This document shows positions 9,285 through 28,424 of a DNA stretch of 36,626 nt, piece by piece. The notes under the pieces were generated by a model. It did not search any database. It had not been told where the DNA came from and was given only the letters and a program-made list of their open reading frames with translations. The DNA is from a virus: the IMG/VR virus record IMGVR_UViG_3300034073_004938, positions 1 to 36,626 of that record; one strand, given 5' to 3'. Both the position numbers and the translations under genes were made by a program. The stretch's first letter is position 1; each line of letters begins with the position of its first letter.

Positions 9285-10304
9285 TCAACTGAAGGTGATG
9301 GTGAACTCGTCGCCGAGGGCGTCGTCCAATTCGGTCCGGCGAACGAGCAGGTCGACGGGCGAGGTAATCAGGCCGCCGCGGTCGGCGAAGCGTTGGCGGC
9401 TGATCATGGTCTCCAGATGGATGGCCACCTGGTTGCCGGTCTGGGCGCCCCACACGACGTCGAGCGCCTGGCTGGTCCCGGCGAGCAGCGCGGCGTAGAT
9501 GGCGTGGGTGCCTTCGACGACGGCCTCCAGGTCGAGCGAGGCGGTGGGGCTATGGTTGGTGACGATGAAACCCTTGATGCCGGTGGCGCTGGCGGCGTCG
9601 TCGCGGCGGCTCACCTGGTTCGCGGCGTCCACATTCAGGCTGGCGAGCACGTGGGTGCTGACCGCGCCCCAGGTGCAGAGCGCGGTGGCGCCGTTGTAAA
9701 CGAACAGCGGCGGCATCGTGTTCAGCCAGGTGGGATCGGCTGGGATGCTGGCGTCGCTGACCGAATAGAAGCCGGTGAAGGTCCAGTTGACCTTGCCGCT
9801 CTGGCCGACGGCGAGCGCGAGCTGGAAGGTGCCCTTGGCGCCGGTGACCTTGTGCAGCTTGCCGCCGGCGTAGAAGTGGAAGGTGACGGAGGAACCCACG
9901 CCGCCGCCGCTGGGGACGGCGCGCCGGTATTGCACCTGGCCGTCGCGCGACCCGCTGCTCACCTCGGCGGTGTAGGTCGGCTCAAAGTCGCAGGCTTGGA
10001 ACAGCGGGTTAATCTCGATGGCATTGCCCGAGGCGCCGGCCGAGATGTCGGCGTCGGTGCCGTTGGTGCGGTTGCCGCGGAGCTCCGTCTGGAAGCGGAT
10101 GACGGCGCGCGGGAAGGCGGTCTGGCCGGTGCTCCGGGCGAAGTCACCGTGGAGGATGGGCCGCTCCAGGGTGTCCACGTCGGGCTCGACCGTGACATTG
10201 CCGATGACGGCGATGTTGTTGGCGGTTTTGGTCGGGGTGGGGTCGGTCCCGTAGGAGGATTCGACTTTGGCCAGCAGCAGGCCGAGCGCGGAAAGGTATG
10301 GCAT
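9285..10304 (-). CDS. major tail tube protein
   Basis: A 339-residue protein between the tail terminator gene and the G/GT gene, the usual site of the tail tube gene. It starts MPYLSALGLLLAKVESSYGTD and has the beta-rich, Gly/Thr/Ser-rich composition of tube proteins. Tube-like segments include VTVEPDVDTLERPILHGDF and the central FQLALAVGQSGKVNWTFTGFY, comparable to the conserved core of phage tail tube families. It polymerises as stacked rings around the tape measure. Its length allows an additional C-terminal surface domain. A palindrome lies about 40 bases upstream of the start. Confidence 0.8.
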   Translation of the reverse strand: MPYLSALGLLLAKVESSYGTDPTPTKTANNIAVIGNVTVEPDVDTLERPILHGDFARSTGQTAFPRAVIRFQTELRGNRTNGTDADISAGASGNAIEINPLFQACDFEPTYTAEVSSGSRDGQVQYRRAVPSGGGVGSSVTFHFYAGGKLHKVTGAKGTFQLALAVGQSGKVNWTFTGFYSVSDASIPADPTWLNTMPPLFVYNGATALCTWGAVSTHVLASLNVDAANQVSRRDDAASATGIKGFIVTNHSPTASLDLEAVVEGTHAIYAALLAGTSQALDVVWGAQTGNQVAIHLETMISRQRFADRGGLITSPVDLLVRRTELDDALGDEFTITFS

Positions 10305-10344
10305 GTGTCCCGGTCACTCGCTCGCGTCCATCGCGGGCGATGTG

Positions 10345-10365
10345 TCGGCGCACGTTGTGCGCCGA
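10345..10365. repeat. palindrome TCGGCGCAC-3 nt-GTGCGCCGA, copy 1
   Basis: Perfect 9-bp arms with a 3-base centre, 40 bases upstream of the tail tube start. The same arms occur at 24734-24754, 37 bases upstream of the holin-like gene. It is either a regulatory dyad for late genes or a dispersed host-type repeat. Confidence 0.8.
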
Positions 10366-10419
10366 CTGGGGTCACTTTGGGAAATGACCGGGAGGGGCGG
10401 GATTGGCCGGACGGCCAAA

Positions 10420-24225: not shown

Positions 24226-24696
24226 TCAGGGCTTGGCGGCGTTCAGCAGCTTGGTGGCGGCCTCGATCAGCGCGACGGCGTTGGTCGGCCCCCTGTTGCT
24301 GATGCTGTCGGTGCCAAAGCTCTGCGACTTGTCGGTCTGGATCGCCTTGAGCTGGGTGATAGCCTGTTGCCCGGAAAACCAGGCGCGGCCCCGGAGCTTA
24401 AAGGTGATCTGCCGTTCGGGGCTCACGTCACCCTGCTCCACGGCAAACGTGGTGCAGCCGGTGCCAAGCGGAAGCAGCGCCAGCGCCAGCAGCGCGGCGA
24501 TCGCGGCGGGGGGCACGGTGGGGCCGGGCGGGCGGTTGCGCTTTTCCCAGATGGACCACACGACGCCGACGATGGTGACGATGGCCCCGGCGAGTGCCTC
24601 GATGTCATCGGAGCCGGCGAGACCCTTGGAGGTGAGGGCGCCGCCGGCGGTGGTGAGGCCGTGGCGAAGGAGCGCGAGGAGTGTGTTCCGATTCAT
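24226..24696 (-). CDS. holin-like protein with C-terminal lipoprotein-like part
   Basis: A 156-residue protein starting at ATG 24696. Residues 1-55 (NTLLALLRHGLTTAGGALTSKG, IEALAGAIVTIVGVVWSIWEKRN) resemble the Pam3 gp28-type holin family, with one transmembrane helix. Residues 63-80 form a second hydrophobic segment ending in PLGTGC (Cys81), which resembles a lipobox. About 75 polar residues follow. The shape suggests a holin fused to an outer-membrane spanin-like lipoprotein. A terminator and palindrome lie just upstream, so this gene should begin a separate transcript. Confidence 0.65.
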   Translation of the reverse strand: MNRNTLLALLRHGLTTAGGALTSKGLAGSDDIEALAGAIVTIVGVVWSIWEKRNRPPGPTVPPAAIAALLALALLPLGTGCTTFAVEQGDVSPERQITFKLRGRAWFSGQQAITQLKAIQTDKSQSFGTDSISNRGPTNAVALIEAATKLLNAAKP

Positions 24697-24733: not shown

Positions 24734-24754
24734 TCGGCGCACAAGGTGCGCCGA
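24734..24754. repeat. palindrome TCGGCGCAC-3 nt-GTGCGCCGA, copy 2
   Basis: Perfect 9-bp arms, 37 bases upstream of the holin-like start and immediately after the intrinsic terminator. It is the second copy of the 10345-10365 palindrome with the same distance to a downstream start. Confidence 0.8.
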
Positions 24755-24761
24755 TGGACCG

Positions 24762-24793
24762 GTGAAAAGGAAACGCCCCGGAGAGCCGGGGCG
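24762..24793 (-). terminator. Rho-independent terminator of the three-gene operon
   Basis: On the minus strand CGCCCCGG-CTCT-CCGGGGCG (24793 to 24774) forms an 8-bp GC stem with a 4-base loop. TTTCCTTTTC follows directly. It stands 41 bases after the stop of the 60-residue gene (24835) and before the holin-like gene, so it ends the operon that starts at the 26247-26275 promoter. Confidence 0.8.
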
Positions 24794-24834
24794 CGCGGGG
24801 TGGCGGAATGTGAGGCGAAAGCAGGGGCGGGGAA

Positions 24835-25017
24835 CTAGGAGCGGGGAGCGCAGAGCAGCGCGCGGACGGCCTCGGCCGTGGTCAGCCCGCCGGCCGCGAG
24901 CGCGGGGGCGTCGGCCGCGTAGATGCGGATCAGCTTGGTGGGCTCGCCCGCGGGGCGACCACCGAGCTTGCCGTTGCGGCGCGCGGCGCGGGCGCGGGGA
25001 TCAGTCTTGGGGCGCAT
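24835..25017 (-). CDS. small basic protein with NGKLGGRP motif
   Basis: A 60-residue protein starting at ATG 25017, overlapping the end of the previous gene by 17 bases. The N-terminus is basic (RPKTDPRARAARRNGKLGGRP). RNGKLGGRP-type sequences occur at the start of many small phage DNA-binding proteins. The C-terminus reads LLCAPRS followed by TAG, and these last codons and the stop are a GGAGC-repeat translation. Possibly a DNA-binding accessory or antitoxin-like peptide. Confidence 0.5.
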   Translation of the reverse strand: MRPKTDPRARAARRNGKLGGRPAGEPTKLIRIYAADAPALAAGGLTTAEAVRALLCAPRS

Positions 25018-25540
25018 AGTAGTAGGGCAGGCAGCGGGCGAGCCGCAGCATCTCGTCGCCCAGCTCCTCGGCCTCCAGGCGGCGGGTGCCCAGCTCGCCG
25101 ATGACCGTGCCGGAGGGAATGCGGAGCGTGTGGAGCGTGGGCGTGTCGCGGAGATTGATCGTGCCGCCGGCCAAGACGCCATCAGCCAGTTCGGTGGCGT
25201 AGGTGAGCATGGGCTCGGAGTAGGCGCGGATGTAGTCCGGGGCGCGGACGATGACGGGCTGCCGGGCATCATGCCGGGCGATGATCAGCCACTGGTCACG
25301 ATCCAGCACGTAGCACACGCCGGGGCGCACCACGGGCGCGGTGGCGAGCGGGAGATCGGCCAGCAGGGGGGCTGCCCGCACATCGGTGCGCAGGCGATAG
25401 ACGTGCTCGCCGGACTCGTGCCAGCGATACAGCGAGGCCCACGCATCACGCATCACGGCGAGGTGGGGCGGCGTGGGCCACCCGGCCGCCAGCAGGGAGC
25501 GCTGGAGCCGGGTGGCGAGCTGATGGAGGTGCTTGGTCAT
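25001..25540 (-). CDS. uncharacterised protein of the three-gene operon
   Basis: A 179-residue protein. Helical N-terminus (HLHQLATRLQRSLLAAGW), then a region with aromatic and strand-like segments (VCYVLDRDQWLIIARHDARQPVIVRAPDYIRAYSE) and an alpha/beta end (IPSGTVIGELGTRRLEAEELGDEMLRLARCL). No motif recognised. It is the middle gene of an operon with its own promoter and terminator. Confidence 0.6.
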   Translation of the reverse strand: MTKHLHQLATRLQRSLLAAGWPTPPHLAVMRDAWASLYRWHESGEHVYRLRTDVRAAPLLADLPLATAPVVRPGVCYVLDRDQWLIIARHDARQPVIVRAPDYIRAYSEPMLTYATELADGVLAGGTINLRDTPTLHTLRIPSGTVIGELGTRRLEAEELGDEMLRLARCLPYYYAPQD

Positions 25541-25543
25541 CGG

Positions 25544-26158
25544 TCAGTCCTCATCGACCTGGCACCACTCGCCGCCCACCAGTTGCCGGACCTCGTATCC
25601 GCACAGATAGCGCGTGTGATCTCCGGGGCCTGGCCAGTCCTTGGCGGCCACAGCCTGAGAGGCTAGGTCGGAGGTGGCGTGGCGAGAGACGACGTGCGCG
25701 TCATCGCCGACCGTCTCCCAGTAGCACGCCCACTCGCCCGCCGGGTCAGTCTCGGGCTCTGGCGGCGGGGTCTGGCGGAGATAGGTCCGGGTCTGATTGC
25801 CGGCGCCGCATGACTCCACCACGGTCTCGACCCCGGTGCAGTTGCCGCACAGCACCTCACCATCGTCGGTGGTGGTGTAGTCCTGACAGGCGGCACAGGT
25901 CGGGATGCCCTGATCGTCGGTGCAGGTAGCCGGCTCGCTGCAGCCGCAGCCGCTGCATTCGCAGCCCGGCCAGCCGGCGATCTCAGCCTCGGCCAGCACC
26001 TCCCGCTCGTGCTGCTGGCGCAACTCGCGGAACAGGGTCAGGCCGAGGTCGCCGTCACGCAGGCCCTCCAGGATGCTGCGGCGATCGCAGCAGCGGCTAG
26101 GGAGCGGCAGGGCCATGATGCGGCGGCACTCGGGGCGGATGGATTCGACAGTCTTCAT
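25544..26158 (-). CDS. cysteine-rich, probably zinc-binding protein
   Basis: A 204-residue protein starting at ATG 26158. The N-terminus is helical (RSILEGLRDGDLGLTLFRELRQQHEREVLAEAEI). Residues 66-117 hold ten cysteines in close pairs (CECSGCGCS at 66-74, CAAC at 88-91, CGNC at 104-107), typical of zinc ribbons or rubredoxin-like knuckles. The C-terminal part (WACYWETVGDDAHVVSRHAT, TRYLCGYEVRQLVGGEWCQVD) is globular and acidic. It is the first gene after the promoter. A regulatory role is possible; no known family is named. Confidence 0.6.
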   Translation of the reverse strand: MKTVESIRPECRRIMALPLPSRCCDRRSILEGLRDGDLGLTLFRELRQQHEREVLAEAEIAGWPGCECSGCGCSEPATCTDDQGIPTCAACQDYTTTDDGEVLCGNCTGVETVVESCGAGNQTRTYLRQTPPPEPETDPAGEWACYWETVGDDAHVVSRHATSDLASQAVAAKDWPGPGDHTRYLCGYEVRQLVGGEWCQVDED

Positions 26159-26215
26159 TTTGTTCTTCGCGACTTTTGCGGCCTGCGTCCGGCCGGTTCG
26201 ATTTTCTTGCCGTCC

Positions 26216-26232
26216 GCGGGACTCATTCCCGC
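26216..26232. promoter_or_regulatory. operator-like inverted repeat in the 5' leader
   Basis: GCGGGA-CTCAT-TCCCGC is a perfect 6-bp inverted repeat with a 5-base spacer. It starts about 15 bases downstream of the -10 box, so it could be a repressor site or a leader hairpin. Confidence 0.45.
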
Positions 26233-26246
26233 TCACGACGGGGAAA

Positions 26247-26275
26247 GGTATAGCCGGGGTTTTGGTTTGCGTCAA
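26247..26275 (-). promoter_or_regulatory. sigma70-type promoter of the three-gene operon
   Basis: On the minus strand TTGACG (26275-26270), a 17-base spacer and TATACC (26252-26247) form a near-consensus promoter about 90 bases upstream of the cysteine-rich gene. The stretch 26159-26372 otherwise contains a degenerate GGAGC-type repeat near 26340-26380 and no supported gene. Confidence 0.7.
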
Positions 26276-26372
26276 CGGAAACCGAATGGAATTTTGCGCG
26301 GGGGATTCGGATTGCAGGGGCCTCGCCCGGGCGTGGTGGCCCTGGGCTTCCCGCTCCGCGCTCCCCCGCTGC

Positions 26373-26711
26373 TCAGCGCCGGGACTCGCGGAGGCTTTGG
26401 GCTTCCTTGGCGCGGCGGGTCCAGAACTCGGGGTCGCGGATGTCGTGGAGCAGGCGCTGCAGGCTGCCGAGCTCGAATTCCCACTTGGTGGGCGTGGGGC
26501 GTCGGAAGGTGAGCAGACCGACCTCGGCCCACCGGTAGAGCGTGCTGGCGCTCTGTCCGCTGAGGCGCAATGCGTCGCGCGTCTTGATCCAGGTCTCGCC
26601 GTGGCTGTCGGGCAGCCGGGGGCGCATGGTGAAGGTGCCGTCGCCGCGGGCCTGGAAGGTGCCCATGATCGGCAACTCGAACTGTTCGGCGGTGTGGATG
26701 GCACGGGGCAT
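26373..26711 (-). CDS. MerR/AlpA-like helix-turn-helix protein
   Basis: A 112-residue protein. Residues 41-80 (WIKTRDALRLSGQSASTLYRWAEVGLLTFRRPTPTKWEF) match the excisionase/MerR-like helix-turn-helix pattern: helix, turn, S.STLYRW helix, then a wing with K.E.E. The preceding strand-rich part and short helical C-terminus may be an effector or dimerisation region. It lies just upstream of the operon promoter, so it may regulate middle or late transcription in place of a Mor/C protein. Inference from position only. Confidence 0.68.
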   Translation of the reverse strand: MPRAIHTAEQFELPIMGTFQARGDGTFTMRPRLPDSHGETWIKTRDALRLSGQSASTLYRWAEVGLLTFRRPTPTKWEFELGSLQRLLHDIRDPEFWTRRAKEAQSLRESRR

Positions 26712-27054: not shown

Positions 27055-27090
27055 AGCGCAGGGAGCGGGAGCTAGGAGCGGGGAGCGAGG
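27055..27090. repeat. GGAGC-type repeat carrying the GemA stop codon
   Basis: GGGAGCGGGAGCTAGGAGCGGG codes on the minus strand APRS followed by TAG (stop at 27072-27074). The 60-residue gene at 24835 ends in exactly the same way. Confidence 0.8.
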
Positions 27091-27629
27091 GTGTAGACGC
27101 GGCCGGCGCCGGCGCGGTTGGCGGCGATCTGCTGGCCTTGTTCGTGGTCGGCGCGGGATTCGCGCAGGCGTTCCTGGGCGGCGCTCTCGGCCTTCACGGT
27201 GCGCTTGAGGGCGGCCAGGTAGGGCCAGCCGTCGCCGGTCTTGGCGCGGATGGCGGCGAGGTAGCCGGTGCCCTTGCCGGCGAGCTGCAGGTAGCTTTCC
27301 GCCTTGCGGATGGCGGCTTGCAACTGCGCGTCGGCATGGCGGTCGCGGCTGGTGTTGCCGGCGGGATTCTTGGCGGCCCAGTAACCGCGCTTGAGGAAGG
27401 GCGCCGTGGGGCGCGGCTTGGTGCCGGCCTGGTCGAGGGCGCGCCAGTAGATGGCCTCGGCGTAGCCCATGAAGCGGTCGAACTGTTCGTCGCCCAGGCG
27501 GGGGTCCTTGCTGGTGGTGCAGCTCGGCAGGCCGCTGGCGGTGGCGAGCGCCGCGTGGTAGTCGGCCTCGGACAGGCCGGCGGCGCGCTGGGCCATCTTG
27601 ACGAGGCGGATTTGGGCGGTGGTGAGCAT
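27072..27629 (-). CDS. gemA: GemA / Mu gp16-like regulator
   Basis: A 185-residue protein. The N-terminal TAQIRLVKMAQRAAGLSEADYHAALATASGLPSCTTSKD and LGDEQFDRFMGYAEAIYW match the DUF1018/GemA family pattern (I...K..L.L....Y...L......S...L...E...F...). In Mu this protein modulates host gene expression and DNA supercoiling. It lies in the early-to-middle region, as in Mu. The last residues LAPRS and the TAG stop are contributed by a low-complexity repeat, which suggests a recent change of the C-terminus. Confidence 0.85.
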   Translation of the reverse strand: MLTTAQIRLVKMAQRAAGLSEADYHAALATASGLPSCTTSKDPRLGDEQFDRFMGYAEAIYWRALDQAGTKPRPTAPFLKRGYWAAKNPAGNTSRDRHADAQLQAAIRKAESYLQLAGKGTGYLAAIRAKTGDGWPYLAALKRTVKAESAAQERLRESRADHEQGQQIAANRAGAGRVYTLAPRS

Positions 27630-27690
27630 GGGGAGCGGGGAGCTAGGAGCGGGGAGCAGGGAGAACAGCGAAGGCGCGAAGACGCGAAGG
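27628..27690. repeat. GGAGC-type and GCGAAGG-type repeats in the GemA upstream spacer
   Basis: GGGGAGCGGGGAGCTAGGAGCGGGGAGC-type units (27630-27660) are followed by AACAGCGAAGGCGCGAAG (27664-27681). The second unit touches the stop of the 84-residue gene, as the similar unit at 29903-29930 touches the stop of the 45-residue gene. Confidence 0.75.
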
Positions 27691-27945
27691 TCAGTCCGGT
27701 TTGGAGGCTGCCAGTTGGCGAACGCTCTTCAGGGGAATGCCCGAGGTGGTGCCCAAAAATGGAATCTCAGGGCGCTCACCGCGGAGCTGGCTGTATTCCA
27801 GTTCAAGGGCCAGGGACGTGAACACCTTGCCAGCCGCGTTGACCATTTCCTTCACCTGGTTGGCGCGCCGTGGGTCCTGTTTCACGGACTCGAAGGCGTC
27901 GAGCAGTTGGTCGCGGAGCTCTTGGTTGTTAGTAGGTCTTGGCAT
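27691..27945 (-). CDS. small conserved-type phage protein upstream of GemA
   Basis: An 84-residue acidic helical protein. RPTNNQELRDQLLDAFESVKQDPRRANQVKEMVNAAGKVFTSLALELEYSQLRGERPEIPFL is a compact two- to three-helix sequence of a kind I recall as a small conserved phage protein of unknown function. Its first 64 bases overlap the last codons of the zinc-finger gene. Confidence 0.65.
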   Translation of the reverse strand: MPRPTNNQELRDQLLDAFESVKQDPRRANQVKEMVNAAGKVFTSLALELEYSQLRGERPEIPFLGTTSGIPLKSVRQLAASKPD

Positions 27946-28424
27946 AGTCTTTTTCCTTGGATGATGGTGCGTTTGAGGTCGATCAGAGATTGAGGGATTG
28001 CCCGTCTAGTTAGGGGTGTGGTCGCGACGATGAGGCTTCTTACGTATCCATCCGTGAGTCTCTCGCTGTGCCGCCGTGCATAGTTTGCTGATAGCGATGG
28101 ATTTTTGGCTCGAAGCATTTGCTGCCAATCTTTGCGCGCTTTCCGGCCTCCGCGCTCAAGCCAGTTAAGTAGCGTCGCTTTGGATTTTTCGGGATTCAAT
28201 GAGCGCCACCGGCCCAATCTCTCCAGTTCTCTTTTTTTCCATTCCGGCGGCATCCCGGCAGCGCGGTCTCTTACTTTCTTCTTTGCGGACTCTGGGTTCT
28301 TCCAGTAGCGAGCCCGTCCTGCTTTCTTTTTGCAGTCCCGACAGGTGTTTCCGCTCCCGTGGTAAAAATCCTCCTCGGTTTTCTGAATGCCACACTTCCG
28401 GCAAACTTTGGTCGGTGAACTCAT
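27882..28424 (-). CDS. lower-GC zinc-finger protein, possible moron
   Basis: A 180-residue protein with an N-terminal zinc-finger pattern CRKC...CRDC (Cys8, 11, 28, 31, EDFY between). This is a pattern seen in HNH-associated and recombination-type small phage proteins. A long basic helical region (KKKVRDRAAGMPPEWKKRELERLGRW) and a C-terminal LTDGYVRSLIV...IPQSLIDLKRTIIQGKRL segment follow, typical of phage proteins with an HNH or similar partner. I see no H-N-H catalytic site. GC is visibly lower than in neighbouring genes. It overlaps the next gene by 64 bases. Confidence 0.65.
   Translation of the reverse strand: MSSPTKVCRKCGIQKTEEDFYHGSGNTCRDCKKKAGRARYWKNPESAKKKVRDRAAGMPPEWKKRELERLGRWRSLNPEKSKATLLNWLERGGRKARKDWQQMLRAKNPSLSANYARRHSERLTDGYVRSLIVATTPLTRRAIPQSLIDLKRTIIQGKRLCQDLLTTKSSATNCSTPSSP

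Follow-up and report, generated by a model that had tools for sequence, protein, structure and literature searches.

A probable moron operon with a constant leader and gene pair and a replaced first gene in two unrelated phages

Overview

We analysed a 36,626-base stretch of viral DNA (IMG/VR record IMGVR_UViG_3300034073_004938; hereafter the window) and found on its minus strand, from 26275 to 24763, a three-gene unit that is probably a horizontally moving accessory operon (moron) placed between an HTH regulator gene and the lysis genes, autoregulated and with a replaceable effector as its first gene. At the level of sequence, two unrelated phages share a constant start region and leader, the gene pair orf179-orf60 and a terminator-like 3' end, and differ by replacement of the first gene. 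The moron reading, one of the options raised in the first-pass annotation, is well supported because in seven relatives the counterparts of the two genes on either side of the unit are neighbours, and because it recurs with its own ends in an unrelated phage, IMGVR_UViG_3300044957_000644 (L187).

Judging from its genes, the window looks like a Mu-like transposable phage. It encodes a TniB/MuB-like ATPase, a transposase-like protein also found in L009 and L085, and a GemA-like protein (a weak match), together with holin, terminase, portal and tail genes, and nearly all of its genes lie on the minus strand. Comparison of the large terminase places many Verrucomicrobia-type contigs among its closest relatives.

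Organisation of the unit

Every element that had been named for the unit (start region, leader palindrome, three genes and terminator) was found on the minus strand, in the order start region, orf204, orf179, orf60, terminator. The first gene, orf204 (25544..26158, minus), encodes an acidic, zinc-ribbon-like protein of 204 aa with 16 cysteines and occupies what we call the variable first slot; codon statistics, which favour the stated frames of all three genes, are the sole basis for taking it as a gene. The second, orf179 (25001..25540, minus), encodes a conserved protein, and the third, orf60 (24835..25017, minus), overlaps it by 17 nt and encodes a small, basic (pI 11.5), putatively DNA-binding regulator. 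Within the window the composition of the unit is ordinary.

The three products had been described as unrecognised, and this holds for Pfam, PHROGs, NCBIfam and PADLOC, none of which gave a match to any of them. The same four resources yielded no match to Acr or Aca proteins and no positive evidence for a defence role, and no homology to toxin or antitoxin families was found for the unit's products. Neither orf179 nor orf60 had a match among solved structures. The AlphaFold model of orf179 is not usable (pLDDT 42); that of orf60 (pLDDT 70) consists of helices without a strand and found no match with Foldseek. The relative of orf60 in L187 has a weak, sub-threshold match to HTH_psq.

The unit ends in an intrinsic terminator (24763..24794, minus), a 9-bp stem at 24794-24773 followed by TTTCCTTTTC. 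It is strong, as described earlier, and one of two terminators of that strength in the window. The minus strand showed no terminator-like site between the upstream gene and the promoter of the unit.

Start region and structured leader

A putative promoter, TTGACG-17-TATACC (26247..26275, minus), opens the unit, with TTGACG starting at 26275 and TATACC at 26252-26247. Its 17-nt spacer and both hexamers are there as reported, but "near-consensus" was a generous term, since only 9 of the 12 positions match, a moderate agreement, and the -10 element is weak and lacks its final T. Sites of this strength are no commoner than chance across the window (3, against a mean of 4.5 after shuffling), and a shuffled version of the 214-nt gap holds one in only 1.4% of cases. 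The TTGACG of the -35 element is kept in L187; the -10 element is not conserved. Around the -35 element lies the dyad GGTT-N12-AACC (26264..26283, minus), a short inverted repeat kept in both copies, which may act as an operator.

The leader carries two hairpins. Hairpin 1 (26211..26239, minus) contains the palindrome noticed earlier, GCGGGA-ATGAG-TCCCGC at 26232-26216, at the position of the expected transcript start. The palindrome is present, and its hairpin is kept in L187, but when the whole gap is shuffled, 28% of the shuffles hold one as good, so that it is not rare; folded in isolation, hairpin 1 scores better than 198 of 200 shuffles. In the window its stem is GCGGGA/TCCCGC and its loop has 5 nt; in L187 the stem is TCGGGA/TCCCGA, a difference that includes a compensatory pair (G-C to U-A), and the loop has 3 nt. 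Hairpin 2 (CGGCC-GGACGCA-GGCCG; 26179..26195, minus) is likewise kept with one compensatory pair, its stem changing from CGGCC/GGCCG to CGACC/GGTCG. The stems of both hairpins are thus retained between the copies while flanks and one loop have changed; folding scores are modest, and the covariation comprises two sequences with one varying pair per hairpin stem. Because the loop of hairpin 1 differs in length, a structured RNA appears to be a better fit than an operator in the DNA, whose spacing would be fixed.

The leader also includes a 44-nt block (26155..26198, minus) that extends into the first start codon and is identical to L187 at 42 of 44 positions. With the 50% identity seen at third codon positions in the downstream genes as the baseline, we calculate a binomial chance of about 6e-11 for such agreement. 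Rfam gave no match at the gathering threshold; a sub-threshold NiCo match falls in coding sequence and was dismissed as chance.

A second copy in an unrelated phage

L187 was found in the viral collection by means of an alignment of orf179 with its possible relative in L183. This phage is unrelated to that of the window and has lambda-type packaging, its terminase being of GpA type and its portal of lambda type; its copy of the unit adjoins the terminase genes. The order is the same: TTGACG at 1022, the two-hairpin leader, a first gene (1122-1352, 76 aa), a relative of orf179 (1399-1971), a relative of orf60 (1968-2162) whose start lies within the last codons of the gene before it, and a terminator-like stem followed by CTTTT. 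The triplet had been suggested as a movable unit to be sought elsewhere, and here it recurs, but with a different first gene: the two first genes are unrelated, with an alignment score of 23 against a shuffled mean of 25.

The orf179 relative matches with E=3e-57 and is 51% identical across residues 1-177; in the pairwise alignment, 99 of 176 residues agree. By codon position, nucleotide identity is 0.66, 0.73 and 0.50, the third position being the least conserved, and different codons are used at 44 of the 99 identical residues. For orf60, 29 of 59 residues are identical, and the alignment scores 119 where shuffled sequences average 28. Because of these codon data and of the orf60 score, we conclude that orf179 and orf60 are genes under protein-level selection. 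In L187 the unit has a G+C content of 0.65 and its flanks 0.56-0.58, as expected for an import.

These two are the only known copies; near-identical ones may exist unseen. Direct searches with orf179 or orf204 found no relatives. The possible chromosomal relative of orf179 in L183 (26% identity over 135 residues) has E=6.5e-4 for one genome and is marginal, since about 0.5 such matches are expected over the roughly 830 genomes searched. A candidate in L165 was discarded because it lies on a chromosome, opposite other long reading frames on the complementary strand. A trio of the same layout in L085 (137, 163 and 83 aa) was discarded too, its 83-aa protein being unrelated to orf60: 80% of shuffles reach as high a score. 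Weak matches to orf204 in 12 genomes were short, some with stops inside, and were taken as chance. The leader pattern was absent from 164 phylum-level, 77 order-level and 80 family-level genomes (321 look-ups in overlapping sets), and the leader DNA and the constant proteins gave nothing significant against phage and plasmid collections.

Insertion between genes that are adjacent in relatives

Upstream the unit is bordered by the HTH regulator gene (26373..26711, minus), whose counterparts are a phage core gene in relatives, and downstream by a holin gene (24226..24696, minus; Pfam PF23987, E=1.3e-17). An excisionase/MerR-like HTH gene family is present in L010, L027, L028, L037, L089, L093 and L151, and in all seven the next gene encodes a small holin-type membrane protein. 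A profile built from the seven HTH proteins has 26373-26711 as its best match in the window, a modest family link (E=0.0015 for the window's ORFs, 0.11 for all ORFs); PHROGs independently classes this gene as excisionase- or regulator-like. The window has 1,677 nt (about 1.7 kb) between its HTH gene and its holin gene, and the unit occupies that space. Read from gene order, the unit is an insertion between the two.

Which small genes precede the lysis genes differs from one relative to another (thermonuclease-like, lipoproteins, a repressor; L010 5448-6764, L085 5846-7834, L168 548-1609, L169 3-470), and this region is therefore generally variable. Separately, five of the seven relatives carry the motif [AC]AGGTGCG between the HTH and holin-like genes (L010 7218, L037 2330, L151 6934, L093 400, L027 7326), a possible regulator site.

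Interpretation and alternative explanations

In the mechanism that we propose for the moron, the TTGACG region would serve as a promoter working independently of the phage's own programme, and orf60 would bind the dyad at the -35 element and repress its own operon. The leader hairpins may set the stability or the translation of the message. The first gene would be the effector, swapped when recombination takes place between orf179 and the conserved leader, with orf179 as the presumed constant partner in the unit, and the terminator would shield the lysis operon. A role of the effector in defence or counter-defence is plausible, but a guess.

The first-pass annotation had also offered the unit as the middle operon of the phage, at the place of Mor and C in Mu and needed for the lytic programme. 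Its position, with the GemA region on one side and the lysis genes on the other, and its small, regulator-like last gene would suit that role. We consider it very improbable: the unit is absent from that place in the seven relatives and present beside the terminase genes of another phage type, its first gene is not conserved, its promoter lies downstream of both candidate regulators of the phage (26373-26711 and 26739-27053), and Pfam found no Mor or C family match in the proteins scanned (early region and unit). The likeness to the Mu middle operon ends with the place between GemA and the lysis genes; unlike that operon, with its Mor-activated Pm and its C gene, the unit has a -35 element. 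It is unlikely, too, that orf179 and orf60 form a toxin-first toxin-antitoxin pair that stabilises the prophage, with the first gene as a passenger. Two overlapping small genes, of which the second encodes a basic, putatively DNA-binding product, stay paired in two phages behind a promoter with a dyad, much as in BrnTA-like type II pairs, and in BrnTA the gene for the RHH antitoxin follows that for the toxin. Yet the pair matches no toxin or antitoxin family and shows no sequence similarity to BrnTA-like pairs; orf179 is larger than the usual toxins of toxin-first pairs, which counts against this reading; and the exchangeable gene in front, replaced under a conserved leader, would be left unexplained.

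A different doubt concerns the leader. If the two copies reflected one recent exchange, its identity would be leftover shared DNA, with neither a leader RNA nor a platform function. There are only two sequences, with a single varying pair per stem and modest folding scores, as such an event would leave. The exchange is old, however, because third codon positions of the downstream genes are only 50% identical; the leader block is nonetheless kept at 42 of 44 positions, and the stems have persisted while loops and spacers changed. We therefore give a recent exchange little credence.

Among known systems, the moron as defined for Mu-like phages (PMC4378225) shares with the unit its own promoter and terminator signals, an insertion between genes adjacent in relatives and, in L187, a foreign composition; the unit differs in having three genes rather than one, a constant leader and gene pair, and an ordinary composition in the window. 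In acr-aca operons an inverted repeat lies in the core promoter and a co-encoded regulator represses the operon (PMC9410906). The unit resembles these in the short inverted repeat around its putative -35 element, its interchangeable, unrecognised first gene, its constant small, basic and putatively regulatory last gene and its unrelated carriers; it departs from them in having orf179 and a structured leader in addition, and in an orf60 whose HTH is only putative. Because the searches showed no homology to Acr or Aca and orf60 is a DNA-binding protein only putatively, we do not class the unit as acr-aca.

More speculatively, and with distinctly less confidence than in the moron itself, the unit could be a modular cargo platform of phages. 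The structured RNA leader and orf179-orf60 would then be its constant chassis, passed between unrelated phages, and the first slot would take up different effectors under ready-made RNA- and protein-level control. If so, the leader sequence GACGCAGGNCGCAAAAGTCGCGAAGAANAAAATG and the two proteins could be used as bait to pull out first-slot phage effectors that are otherwise unrecognisable, in parallel to the way in which aca genes led to anti-CRISPRs. The unit would also provide a leader RNA to test, along with two protein families that have no known relatives.

Other features of the window

Just beyond the terminator, the dyad GTCGGCGCAC-N3-GTGCGCCGA occurs at 24734-24754, and only once more in the window, at 10344-10366. 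Each of these two sites precedes a minus-strand start codon (of the holin gene and of 9285-10304) by about 40 nt, and the dyad looks like a late-gene operator. Neither 52 genomes nor the viral collection contained it, which led us to reject a host repeat or a widespread operator.

The single gene at 27882-28424 is a candidate for another moron: it encodes a Cys4 motif, its codon use is atypical (G+C 0.53, score -0.49), and a promoter-like site lies at 28128, inside its upstream part. Between 9174 and 31784, many gene ends carry low-complexity "vocabulary" repeats, for example GAGCGGGGAGC and GAAGGCAGAAGG; the sites include 24824-24862, 27632-27670 and 27067-27103. Both orf60 and the GemA-like gene end in one common repeat, ...GCTCCCCGCTCCTAG (APRS*).
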